Shown here piece after piece: positions 15,915-25,574 of a stretch of 46,204 nucleotides of DNA. The notes under the pieces were generated by a model, which made no database searches, was not told the DNA's origin, and saw only the letters and a program-made list of their open reading frames with translations. Position 1 is the stretch's first letter; each line of letters starts with the position of its first letter. The stretch comes from a virus. The position numbers were made by a program, and so were the translations under genes. The stretch spans positions 1 to 46,204 of the IMG/VR virus record IMGVR_UViG_3300035179_000018; one strand, written 5' to 3'.

Positions 15915-17261
15915 TTATTTCTTATAACGCTCTGTTATACACCCTTCAACATTGATTGGCAAACCTGTCGCCCATGCTGGCACAACACACATTATGCCGA
16001 GCATCTGTTTCAATTCAGATTCATCTTTGAGCAAACATATTACTTCATCGTGACTGGTGAAAAGTACATTGTATTCTGCATCAAGTAGTCGCAAAATTGC
16101 TTCTGCCAAGATGTCACGCGCAATTGCTTGCACAATGTTCTCCACCAAAAACCCCCCCCATAAGTTGTTTCCCCACCGATACTTACATTGACCTTCTGAA
16201 TTTACACTGGCATACGGATAACGAAGATAACGGCCAGAAGGAAGTTCTATAAAAGTGGCTTTGTTTTGGTGATAAAATTTAAGAAGCGGTTCATTATCAC
16301 TGAATTTTTCATAACCTTGAATAGAACAACCTTTGAATTTAGTTATTTCGTGTGTTGGTCGTTGTCCAAAATATTGTATCTCGCGCGGATATTTTGTCAC
16401 GAACCGCCATGCTTTCTCTACATTCCTCCAGAATTCAGGAATTTTGGCATATTTTGTCCGGTACATCTTAATTAGTTTTTCGATGAACGCAAAATCATAT
16501 TCGCCACTATTAAATGCTGAGCAGAGATCAGGATTTGTCTGGCATCGTTCAAAGAACAAAGAAGCCCCCATGCCGTATCCACATCCAAGGATTGTATCTT
16601 TGCCAAATCCACGCCGGATTATAAGCATTTTTCTAATTGGTTCTGGATCATTTTCCACTGCTTTTCTAACTGGTGTTTTGAATAACCCTGTTGCAAACTC
16701 TGAATAAATGTCTTTGCCATCTGTAAACCCTTTCACCAGATCATCTTGTCCTGCAAGCCAAGCCAAGACCCGTGCCTCCACTTGGACATAATCACCAATT
16801 CCAAACAGTTGTTCTTGTGGTGCTTTGAGCATTTGGCGGACCTGACCAATCAGAGGATGTATTGGTTTCCCGCGCCCGCGTCCGCCAAGATTCTGTAGAT
16901 TGATCCCCTCAGTCCCAGACCATCTTCCTGTATGTGCCCCATAGTAACTAATAGGTGAACCAATTTTACCACCTCTAACCTTCGCTTGACTCATTAGTTT
17001 TTGAACTCTTTTTATATGAAGTGGCCAAGACTTAACAGCTAATCGTGCTTGCATTAGTTGTCTTATTTTTGGATTAGAATGATGTAATAAATAACTACAT
17101 CCTTCATCATTTTGTGCAAGTTGAACTATCTGTCCTTTCTTGCCTGATTTCATAGGTAAAAATTCTCCTGGCGGCAAAACATTGGCAAGAATGTCCACAA
17201 ACAAATTACTACTACGCAGTATTTTTAAGATATTCTCTTGCTCTTTTGTTAAAGTTTTCAT
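15915..17261 (-). CDS. polA: family A DNA polymerase, polymerase domain (separate gene)
   Basis: The 448-residue protein contains the palm, fingers and thumb of a Pol I-type enzyme: template-binding TGRWSGTEGINLQN at 111-124, motif A GDYVQVEARVLAWLAG at 156-171 (metal ligand Asp157), motif B around RRGFGKDTILGCGYG at 216-230 (Lys221, Tyr229) and motif C SHDEV at 403-407 (Asp405, Glu406). No 3'-5' exonuclease is present; that domain is encoded by the separate gene at 17633-18358, with an HNH gene between. The first 40 residues match the linker that normally follows the exonuclease domain. All key catalytic residues are intact, so it should be active, presumably with the exonuclease as a second subunit. 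Confidence 0.9.
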   Translation of the reverse strand: MKTLTKEQENILKILRSSNLFVDILANVLPPGEFLPMKSGKKGQIVQLAQNDEGCSYLLHHSNPKIRQLMQARLAVKSWPLHIKRVQKLMSQAKVRGGKIGSPISYYGAHTGRWSGTEGINLQNLGGRGRGKPIHPLIGQVRQMLKAPQEQLFGIGDYVQVEARVLAWLAGQDDLVKGFTDGKDIYSEFATGLFKTPVRKAVENDPEPIRKMLIIRRGFGKDTILGCGYGMGASLFFERCQTNPDLCSAFNSGEYDFAFIEKLIKMYRTKYAKIPEFWRNVEKAWRFVTKYPREIQYFGQRPTHEITKFKGCSIQGYEKFSDNEPLLKFYHQNKATFIELPSGRYLRYPYASVNSEGQCKYRWGNNLWGGFLVENIVQAIARDILAEAILRLLDAEYNVLFTSHDEVICLLKDESELKQMLGIMCVVPAWATGLPINVEGCITERYKK

Positions 17262-17643
17262 CTTCTATCGCCGATAATAGTGGATTGCAACGATAACACA
17301 GCAATCCTCTTACTTTTCCAATTTTATGGTTATGATCTACATACAGATTGGAATAAGGAATAGGTTGTTCACAAATAGCACAACAACCATTTTGATTTGC
17401 GCACATTTGTAGTTTTTCCACAGAAGTTAATCCATATTTGACTTTCAAATTAAGGTCTTTTTTGGTTTGCAACATTTTTATCCGTTTTTCTTTTGAAAGT
17501 ACTCTTAAATAATCTTTTTTTGCTACATTACTACAATTTCTACACCATGAACGGAATCCATTTTTGTTCCTTTTGCAAGGACCAAAATATTCTAATGTCA
17601 TTGGCAAGTCGTGTTTGCATTTTGTACAAACTTTAGTTTGCAT
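17212..17643 (-). CDS. HNH homing endonuclease inserted between exonuclease and polymerase genes
   Basis: The 143-residue product has an N-terminal zinc finger (CTKC ... CRNC) and an HNH core (CCAICEQPI, then YVDHNHKIGKVRGLLCYRCN), as in phage recombination-endonuclease-VII/HNH homing enzymes. Its start overlaps the exonuclease stop by 11 bases and its end overlaps the polymerase start by 50 bases. The three genes are in three different frames, so it is neither an intein nor an in-frame domain. The zinc finger is related to those of the small proteins at 25069-25302 and 25299-25574. Confidence 0.88.
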   Translation of the reverse strand: MQTKVCTKCKHDLPMTLEYFGPCKRNKNGFRSWCRNCSNVAKKDYLRVLSKEKRIKMLQTKKDLNLKVKYGLTSVEKLQMCANQNGCCAICEQPIPYSNLYVDHNHKIGKVRGLLCYRCNPLLSAIEDENFNKRAREYLKNTA

Positions 17644-18358
17644 AATTTAATATCCACTCAAGACCGTCTATTGTCTTTAACATTTCCTGTTCCATTTTCT
17701 CTTTGAGTTCTTCCCCCAACTCAAAGTTGATCTCAATATTTGGCTCTAAAAAGGCGTGAAGGCAGTGTGTTGCAAGTCGCAACTCCTTATCAGGATTGCT
17801 AATTAACGGCAACAGTTTTTGAAATAAGTAAGATTCGATCTCCACATCAGTTTTGCAATAATCAGCCAATAACTGTCTCTGAATATCAGTCATATCAGAC
17901 CAATGCGATCCTTTACTCCACTGATTATCGCCTTTTGGTTTTGGTGCACCGAATTGTTTGGCCATATATTCAAGAGAATGTTTATCTCTGGCATCCCAGA
18001 ATTTGGCAAGGTCCCGAATATCTACTGTAAAATGCGGTATGATACCAAAATGTTCTCGCAAAATAAGACCATCAAAAAACAGGTATTGTCCCACAATCGT
18101 GGTGTTATCCCAATCAACACTGTCAAGAAAATCTTGCACTTGATCTGGTAGGAAAAATGTAGGTGCAATTTGTTGAGACGGAGCACCAGCACCCAATCCC
18201 ATTATTTCAAACCGCTTATCCTTGACATATTCTACAGTTGAGAGGTTTTTGAGGGAATAATCTTTGTCCCAATAGGTCTCAAAATCAAGGATCAAGACAT
18301 CTGTAGGATAACCGGCTTTTGCAAGAATATCAGACCAATTGGTATTCAACTTTGTCAT
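17633..18358 (-). CDS. 3'-5' exonuclease domain of the DNA polymerase (separate gene)
   Basis: Starting at ATG 18358 (or a TTG four codons later, which has better RBS spacing), the product is about 241 residues. It is a DEDD-family proofreading exonuclease: Exo I LDFETY at about 24-29, Exo II around GQYLFFDGLIL, and Exo III ADYCKTDVEIE with Tyr and Asp four residues apart (the DEDDy type). DKHSLEYMAKQFG before Exo III is typical of Pol I exonuclease domains. The frame ends where the polymerase domain would be expected, and the HNH gene begins in the stop region. It presumably acts in trans with the 448-residue polymerase. Confidence 0.85.
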   Translation of the reverse strand: MTKLNTNWSDILAKAGYPTDVLILDFETYWDKDYSLKNLSTVEYVKDKRFEIMGLGAGAPSQQIAPTFFLPDQVQDFLDSVDWDNTTIVGQYLFFDGLILREHFGIIPHFTVDIRDLAKFWDARDKHSLEYMAKQFGAPKPKGDNQWSKGSHWSDMTDIQRQLLADYCKTDVEIESYLFQKLLPLISNPDKELRLATHCLHAFLEPNIEINFELGEELKEKMEQEMLKTIDGLEWILNYAN

Positions 18359-18734
18359 CTCCCTCTGTCTTACAGTTTTGTAATCCGCACTGAGTGATCT
18401 TTTTAATCTCTGCAATCTTGCCTTTTAGGGTTTCAATCCCGATACCATCCTCACAAAATTGCCAATAGGTCTTTAACAGTTGGTATATCTTAGCACAAAG
18501 ACATTCAATTTTATCATTATGTTTTGCTGTCTCTCGATCATACGGTATTCGTGCAGGATCTTTGCAGGAATCGGGATTTATACAATTTACAAATCCAAAA
18601 ATCTTGTTTTTTTGCTCGGAGGTTGGCATCTTATTAGCAAGTGCGACCAGAATTATTCGTATCTCCTTAGAGAGTTCCTTCTGACTAACATGTTTTTCTG
18701 AATTAGGAAAAGAAGGGACAGGTGGATTAGACAT
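18330..18734 (-). CDS. hypothetical Cys-containing protein (134 aa)
   Basis: This helical protein with scattered Cys residues (CINPDSC, IECLCAKI, CGLQNC) could bind a metal. Its N-terminus is hydrophilic (SNPPVPSFPNSEK). The start overlaps the stop of the metallophosphoesterase gene (TAATG), and its end overlaps the exonuclease start by 29 bases, so it belongs to the replication operon. No family is recognised. Confidence 0.5.
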   Translation of the reverse strand: MSNPPVPSFPNSEKHVSQKELSKEIRIILVALANKMPTSEQKNKIFGFVNCINPDSCKDPARIPYDRETAKHNDKIECLCAKIYQLLKTYWQFCEDGIGIETLKGKIAEIKKITQCGLQNCKTEGDDKVEYQLV

Positions 18735-25068: not shown

Positions 25069-25302
25069 CTATTTCCCCTCAGCTATTTTCTTTGCACACA
25101 TCCAACATTTACCATTCTCTAAGAAAGCCCCATCAATTGGGCAAAGACCAGATTGTCGACAAGTAGCTAACCATTCGCGCTTTTTGCGGGCTTGCTCAGT
25201 TCTACATACTTTGCAAACTGATTGTAATCCGTCTTTGTTTCGTTTATCAGGTGAAAATTCACTATCTGGTTTTGTTTGCTTGCAACTATTACAAAGTTTC
25301 AT
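25069..25302 (-). CDS. small zinc-finger protein related to the HNH N-terminal finger
   Basis: ATG at 25302 lies in an ATGA overlap with the upstream gene and has GGGG upstream, so it is preferred to 25344. The 77-residue product starts MKLCNSCKQTKPDSEFSPDK, then CKVCRTEQARKKR, the same finger as the HNH protein at 17212-17643. It ends with a second finger (CPIDGAF ... CWMCAKK). No HNH histidines are present, so it is a binding protein or a remnant rather than a nuclease. Confidence 0.55.
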   Translation of the reverse strand: MKLCNSCKQTKPDSEFSPDKRNKDGLQSVCKVCRTEQARKKREWLATCRQSGLCPIDGAFLENGKCWMCAKKIAEGK

Positions 25303-25574
25303 TCTGTATTTCCCCATTTTAACGTTTGTATACATTTTTTGCATATTTTAGATCGTTTTGTTGTAAATGAATCGGCGGATTGCATTTTTCCACATCCAGG
25401 ACAATAGCGTTTTGGGCGTTGCCGTTTAGCTATTTCATAGCGTTTGCGGTGATCAAACGCTACACAGCTTTTACATTTACTTTGTCGGCCATCTTTATGG
25501 GAAAGATTTGGTGAAAATTCACTTAATGGTTTTGGCGGTCCACAATGACCAACACATAGTTTATAACCGTCCAT
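25299..25574 (-). CDS. small zinc-finger protein, first gene of the leftward unit
   Basis: The 91-residue product has the same finger layout as its downstream neighbour: CVGHCGPPKPLSEFSPN, then CKSCVAF, then CPGCGKM ... CKKC. The two adjacent genes are probably tandem paralogues. It starts after AAAGGA about 40 bases downstream of copy 2 of the 30-bp promoter element, so it is among the first leftward genes transcribed. No catalytic motif. Confidence 0.55.
   Translation of the reverse strand: MDGYKLCVGHCGPPKPLSEFSPNLSHKDGRQSKCKSCVAFDHRKRYEIAKRQRPKRYCPGCGKMQSADSFTTKRSKICKKCIQTLKWGNTE

Follow-up and report, generated by a model that had tools for sequence, protein, structure and literature searches.

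A polA-type gene of an uncultured virus split within its thumb-coding region by an Endo VII-type endonuclease gene

How does a DNA polymerase come to be encoded by two genes with an endonuclease gene between them, and could the two products still act as one enzyme? This question arises from a 46 kb record of an uncultured virus (the window, meaning the whole stretch of 46,204 nucleotides analysed here), in which three minus-strand open reading frames (ORFs) in three different frames encode an exonuclease, an endonuclease and a polymerase. We refer to the two polymerase genes as exo and pol. The coordinates, strand, frames and overlaps given in a preliminary description of the locus were all reproduced (Table 1). 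Exo overlaps the endonuclease gene by 11 nt, and pol indeed starts inside the 3′ end of the endonuclease gene, in an overlap that we measured at 50 nt.

Pfam placed DNA_pol_A_exo1 in exo, Endonuclease_7 in the middle ORF and DNA_pol_A in pol, and the motifs Exo I–III followed by Pol A, B and C stand in the order of family-A (polA-type) polymerases. An AlphaFold model of the pol chain had a mean pLDDT of 84.9; residues ~304–330 (window 16266–16370, minus strand) form a low-confidence insertion relative to most relatives. Directly upstream of exo lies a small gene of unassigned function (18330–18734, minus strand). Its homologues sit between the phosphoesterase and polymerase genes in two related loci (L010 and L011, 29–34% identity), and it could encode a replication accessory protein.

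Table 1 Features of the interrupted polymerase locus, in window positions
Feature	Position	Strand	Evidence
N-terminal polymerase gene (exo), 241 aa	17633..18358	-	ORF; PF01612; Klenow mapping; strong Shine-Dalgarno site
Exo chain content: DEDDy 3′–5′ exonuclease domain and first polymerase-domain helices, including thumb helix H	17633..18358	-	
Exo II position: TAC (Tyr92), Asn in 135/139 relatives	18083..18085	-	Alignment with 139 relatives
Insertion interval, Tyr239 codon (17644–17642) to Leu15 codon (17219–17217)	17217..17644	-	Comparison with L093, L094 and L097
Free-standing Endo VII-type (DHHRN) endonuclease gene, 143 aa, within the polymerase gene	17212..17643	-	PF02945; PDB match; conserved residues
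C-terminal polymerase gene (pol), 448 aa: remaining thumb, palm, fingers, motifs A, B and C	15915..17261	-	ORF; PF00476; AlphaFold; motif columns
Candidate alternative pol start Met37, with CCAGGAGA upstream at ~17164–17171	17151..17153	-	Duplex energy -7.4

A single gene in the relatives

We gathered relatives of the polymerase by profile searches of IMG/VR and bacterial genomes. Both parts were recognisable in 167 loci, and in 154 of these the frame was open from the start of the exonuclease match through pol. Twelve of the remaining 13 had a single stop near the upstream end of the exonuclease match, within the start region or shortly ahead of it, and the thirteenth (L173) had a stop at +351. 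All 139 non-redundant full-length relatives, that is, the full-length single ORFs left after redundancy removal, encode exo and pol together. The nearest were L091 (59% identity in pol), L010 and L092 (49% in exo, 56% in pol) and L011, which carries an apparent intein; none above ~60% identity in pol was found. Used alone as a query for close relatives, the terminase returned one terminase-only contig and the endonuclease none, and at the nucleotide level no useful relative of the locus was found among cultured phages.

The window and L010–L013 share a gene order of phosphoesterase, polymerase, PD-(D/E)XK nuclease, AAA ATPase and zinc-ribbon protein. In trees built separately for exo and pol, the window groups each time with L092 and neighbouring sequences, within a clade of intact genes. 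Because all 139 relatives are unsplit and the two trees agree on intact neighbours, the split is derived. An assembly chimera is made less likely by the common ancestry of the two halves with intact genes, and a complete endonuclease inside a gene that is open in 139 of 139 relatives is more than chance would give. The branch lengths of the two trees gave no clear sign of decay of exo after the split.

Relatives in which the two domains had always been separate would have spoken for another history, in which exo and pol were ancestrally distinct and the endonuclease entered the gap between them. There is precedent for separate exonuclease and polymerase genes in LUZ24-group phages and phiEco32 (PMC3517423). 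Both halves, however, descend together with intact genes, and exo and pol are fused in every one of the 139 relatives, among them the closest in either tree. These points, the great distance of the LUZ24 proteins from the window's clade and the position of the break, which falls in the thumb and not at the end of the exonuclease domain, make this history extremely unlikely. At locus L269 (327–2501), ~300 nt with no long joining frame separate an ORF resembling an exonuclease (183 aa) from one for a polymerase (437 aa), possibly another separated polymerase or a frameshift.

The insert and its endonuclease

Comparison with unsplit relatives, which the preliminary description had recommended, located the insertion interval. 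The linkers most like the window's are those of L093, L094 and L097, which have 11 residues at this interval (in L093, WILEYATKTKKTMEQILRARSIF). In the window, WILNY precedes the endonuclease and LRSSNLF comes after it. Homology ends in exo with the Tyr239 codon and resumes in pol with the Leu15 codon, and strictly 422 nt lie between these two. The endonuclease has a native start (MQTKVCTKC, compared with MQTIECKKC in HTVC100P) and a native end (..YLKN), so the insert of ~422 nt consists of the ORF and little else. The native sequence of exo stops at Tyr239, its final two codons and stop being supplied by endonuclease DNA, and up to 14 N-terminal codons of pol overprint the 3′ end of the endonuclease gene. 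Third-position GC is low in the endonuclease (22%) and in pol codons 15–113 (19%), compared with 36% in the remaining exo and pol codons. The low-GC stretch that follows the insert hints at a co-conversion tract but no more than that, as its boundary was picked after viewing the data and a change-point permutation gave p ~0.07–0.09.

Could the insert be removed, or the parts be joined, after transcription? Endo VII-type endonucleases do occur in group I introns of the DNA polymerase genes of LUZ24 and Yersinia phage Berlin (PMC6083498), and by inspection of the sequence a U-ending exon and a G-ending intron can be placed in frame at the locus, so that a compact intron carrying the endonuclease might be spliced out to give one polymerase chain, as in LUZ24. 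Against this, Rfam gave no relevant group I or group II intron at the locus at E values up to 10, while the LUZ24 polymerase intron, our positive control in evalue mode, was found with E 1.5e-8. The insert is wholly ORF at ~422 nt, compared with 638 nt for the LUZ24 match, and its predicted RNA folding is not unusual (z -1.03). We regard an intron as very unlikely, in keeping with the earlier view that no room remains for one.

Still more improbable, to the point of being nearly negligible, is that an intein, a ribosomal frameshift or a translational bypass unites the parts in one chain. A related polymerase gene (L011) has an apparent intein at a different site, but the three parts of the window's locus lie in three frames with stop codons, which excludes an intein as had been argued, and the nuclease has no protein-splicing domain. 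We know of no precedent for a translational bypass of ~420 nt. The apparent intein of L011 (5440–6250) lies in a 970-aa polymerase ORF between TGRWSGCE and SINLQN, begins with CVTEDHEV, ends with VTGNS and has a weak LAGLIDADG match. In L038 (1078–3795), a 906-aa polymerase ORF has an in-frame insertion between pol residues ~201 and 222, a possible second intein site; across this phage group, polA is a target of mobile elements at multiple positions.

On these comparisons, gene fission by endonuclease insertion, with no intron or intein, is well supported, since the unsplit relatives have the same gene order, the trees match, the insert has the length of the ORF and the intron search was negative with a working control.

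What kind of endonuclease is this? The gene had been described as an HNH endonuclease. An endonuclease gene does stand at that place, but its subtype is Endo VII. It matched PF02945 (Endonuclease_7) with E 3e-17 over residues 65–141 of 143, and its PDB match was T4 endonuclease VII. It has the CX2-4C, DHxH, R, CX2C, N motif of the DHHRN family, including the zinc cysteines, and C88, C91, D103, H104, H106, R112, C116, C119 and N120 are invariant in the endonuclease-family alignment (A5). The Endo VII motif occupies the C-terminus, the arrangement seen in the endonuclease clade and not in the resolvase clade. Proteins with a C-terminal Endo VII motif include proven homing endonucleases such as F-CphI (PMC6083498).

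The closest endonuclease relatives in IMG/VR (L191, L192, L194, L202 and L204) are 40–43% identical, and the phages that carry them have terminase, portal or capsid proteins resembling the window's. Those endonuclease genes that were inspected closely stand beside the terminase gene or between virion genes, and in two relatives from the polymerase clade (L098 and L099) such genes occur elsewhere in the replication cassette. Kin at other sites in related phages suggest movement as a free-standing element; from these sequence comparisons, the endonuclease looks like one that has moved among sites in this phage group and landed inside polA. Several of the 80 closest endonuclease loci adjoin a polA-type gene, and no polymerase split by an Endo VII-type gene was seen among the inspected loci of these 80. 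At eight loci (L195, L197, L222, L241, L246, L263, L264 and L269), Endo VII-type genes start near or overlap the stop of a polA-type gene without splitting it, an arrangement that recurs among these phages. The window itself also has two adjacent 91-aa ORFs (25069–25574, minus strand) whose similarity to Endo VII-type endonucleases is confined to the N-terminal zinc-binding part; they may be DNA-binding relics of such genes.

The break in the thumb and the catalytic residues

Exo had been thought to end exactly at the linker between the two domains. This is off by ~50 residues. In the Klenow fragment the exonuclease domain ends near 518, the exo–pol boundary lies near 518–521 and the thumb starts near 549. 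When the clade profile was aligned to the Klenow fragment, the exo chain ended at about residue 571 and native pol sequence resumed at about 581. In the intact L092 protein, the Pfam DNA_pol_A match begins at residue 223 and the equivalent of the split is ~242–252. The AlphaFold model of L092 (mean pLDDT 92.5) puts the break between helix 218–241 and helix 254–264. The exo chain thus runs ~50 residues into the polymerase domain and does not end at the exonuclease-domain boundary as LUZ24-type exonucleases do. In the model it carries the first thumb helix, whose long partner helix (L092 301–332) belongs to the pol chain.

A break inside the thumb leaves each chain incomplete without the other. 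The modelled structure makes two interlocking chains more probable than a simple pair of exonuclease and polymerase, and the position of the break gives a sharp prediction of how the two chains must fit.

We aligned both chains with the 139 relatives. The preliminary description had all catalytic motifs kept, and this holds for the DEDD carboxylates and the Exo III tyrosine (Exo I D25 and E27, Exo II D96, Exo III Y167 and D171) as well as for the motif A Asp, the motif B Arg/Lys and the motif C His-Asp in pol. The exception is the Exo II Asn, which is Tyr92 in the window. Near-invariant columns were matched at 38 of 39 positions in pol and 9 of 10 in exo. The Exo II Asn supports proofreading in polymerases with such a motif; its replacement by Tyr92 suggests that proofreading by the window's polymerase may be reduced.

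Expression, rival readings and comparison with known systems

Translation in this phage makes use of Shine-Dalgarno sites: the median duplex energy is -6.0, compared with -2.2 at random positions. The ribosome-binding site of exo is strong and that of the endonuclease weak, and the overlap of the endonuclease start with the exo stop is as expected of translational coupling. The pol ATG at 17261 is without a ribosome-binding site (duplex energy -2.1). AGGAG upstream of Met37 is the only strong site near the pol start, and a pol chain beginning at Met37 would lose one thumb-tip helix. Of the unsplit relatives, 66 have a Met in the same column and none of these reaches -7.4, which leaves room for a new pol start that may have evolved after the split.

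Has the insertion simply inactivated the polymerase, so that we are looking at a recently disrupted gene, a defective phage or a chimeric assembly? The changed Exo II Asn and the pol start without a ribosome-binding site would suit such a reading, as would the lack, in our searches, of a close relative showing that the split form is maintained. Yet each half has an open reading frame and is conserved at near-invariant positions, exo and pol share their nearest relatives, the flanking genes are collinear with those relatives, and the window holds no second full endonuclease copy that could have caused misassembly. We consider inactivation unlikely.

The explanation that we favour, and hold to be likely, is that insertion of an Endo VII-type endonuclease gene broke the polA-type gene in the thumb and that the two chains together make one polymerase. 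A free-standing DHHRN gene, putatively encoding a homing endonuclease, entered the thumb-coding part of the gene and, bringing neither intron nor intein, turned one polymerase gene into two. A single transcript would carry all three cistrons. Translation of exo would begin at its strong ribosome-binding site, that of the endonuclease would probably be coupled to termination of exo, and pol would be translated through coupling with the endonuclease or after a restart at Met37. Through the thumb that they share, the two polymerase chains would most likely associate, like the halves of Aeh1 NrdA and phage 25 gp43. In this account the insertion with its boundaries, the unsplit ancestor and the conserved catalytic residues are established by the sequence comparisons, and expression, association, activity and homing are inferred. 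Function as two subunits is plausible by analogy with those enzymes. A more elaborate version, to which we give some but rather little credence, has a two-chain thumb, a pol chain that has acquired a start of its own at Met37 and a proofreading site that has since drifted from Asn to Tyr in Exo II; fission would then have turned the exo chain partly into a structural or dissociable subunit.

Enzymes split by endonucleases are already known in other phages, and this locus is a good new example with a mechanistically tidy split point. In Aeromonas phage Aeh1, nrdA is split by the HNH endonuclease MobE and both chains still form an active enzyme (PMC2988022). The parallel with Aeh1, drawn in the preliminary description, is apt: in each case a free-standing endonuclease ORF splits the gene of an essential phage enzyme with no intron, and in the window the ORF interrupts a gene that relatives have in one piece, with no splicing element detected. 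The Aeh1 enzyme, however, is a ribonucleotide reductase and its endonuclease belongs to another family. In Aeromonas phage 25, the replicative DNA polymerase is likewise made as two chains (43A/43B) with an endonuclease gene, seg43, associated with the split, and the chains co-purify and polymerise (PMC2988022). That polymerase is of family B and its endonuclease of the GIY-YIG type, whereas the window combines family A with Endo VII; the phage 25 split may predate the endonuclease, while the window's intact relatives show an unsplit ancestor.

The LUZ24 group (gp25, gp34–gp36; PMC3517423) also has its 3′–5′ exonuclease and polymerase on separate genes, and LUZ24 has an Endo VII-type endonuclease in the polymerase gene (gp35, which shares 39% identity with the window's enzyme across 71 aa). 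There, however, the exonuclease gene (169 aa) lies kilobases away, whereas the window's exo adjoins the endonuclease, and gp35 is carried by a group I intron at a later point in pol, whereas the window has a break in the thumb and no intron. DHHRN endonucleases are known from introns of polymerase genes (PMC6083498). In Methylophilales phage MEP401 (PMC10580990), a family-A polymerase is similarly split into two ORFs by a small ORF, but one without a known homologue, and the break comes further downstream, close to motif A in the polymerase domain. F-CphI, the founding DHHRN member (PMC6083498), is free-standing and has the same catalytic residues and a C-terminal Endo VII motif; it adjoins psbA and acts with an intron, whereas the window's endonuclease sits inside the gene that it interrupts. 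In the open-licence literature we came across neither an intronless DHHRN insertion in polA nor a split located within the thumb.

The locus offers a before-and-after case in which a selfish endonuclease turns an essential single-chain enzyme into two genes, and it shows together the ancestral unsplit gene, the limits of the insertion and kin of the mobile element at other sites. It is also a system that allows one to ask whether fission frees the proofreading part of a polymerase to change.
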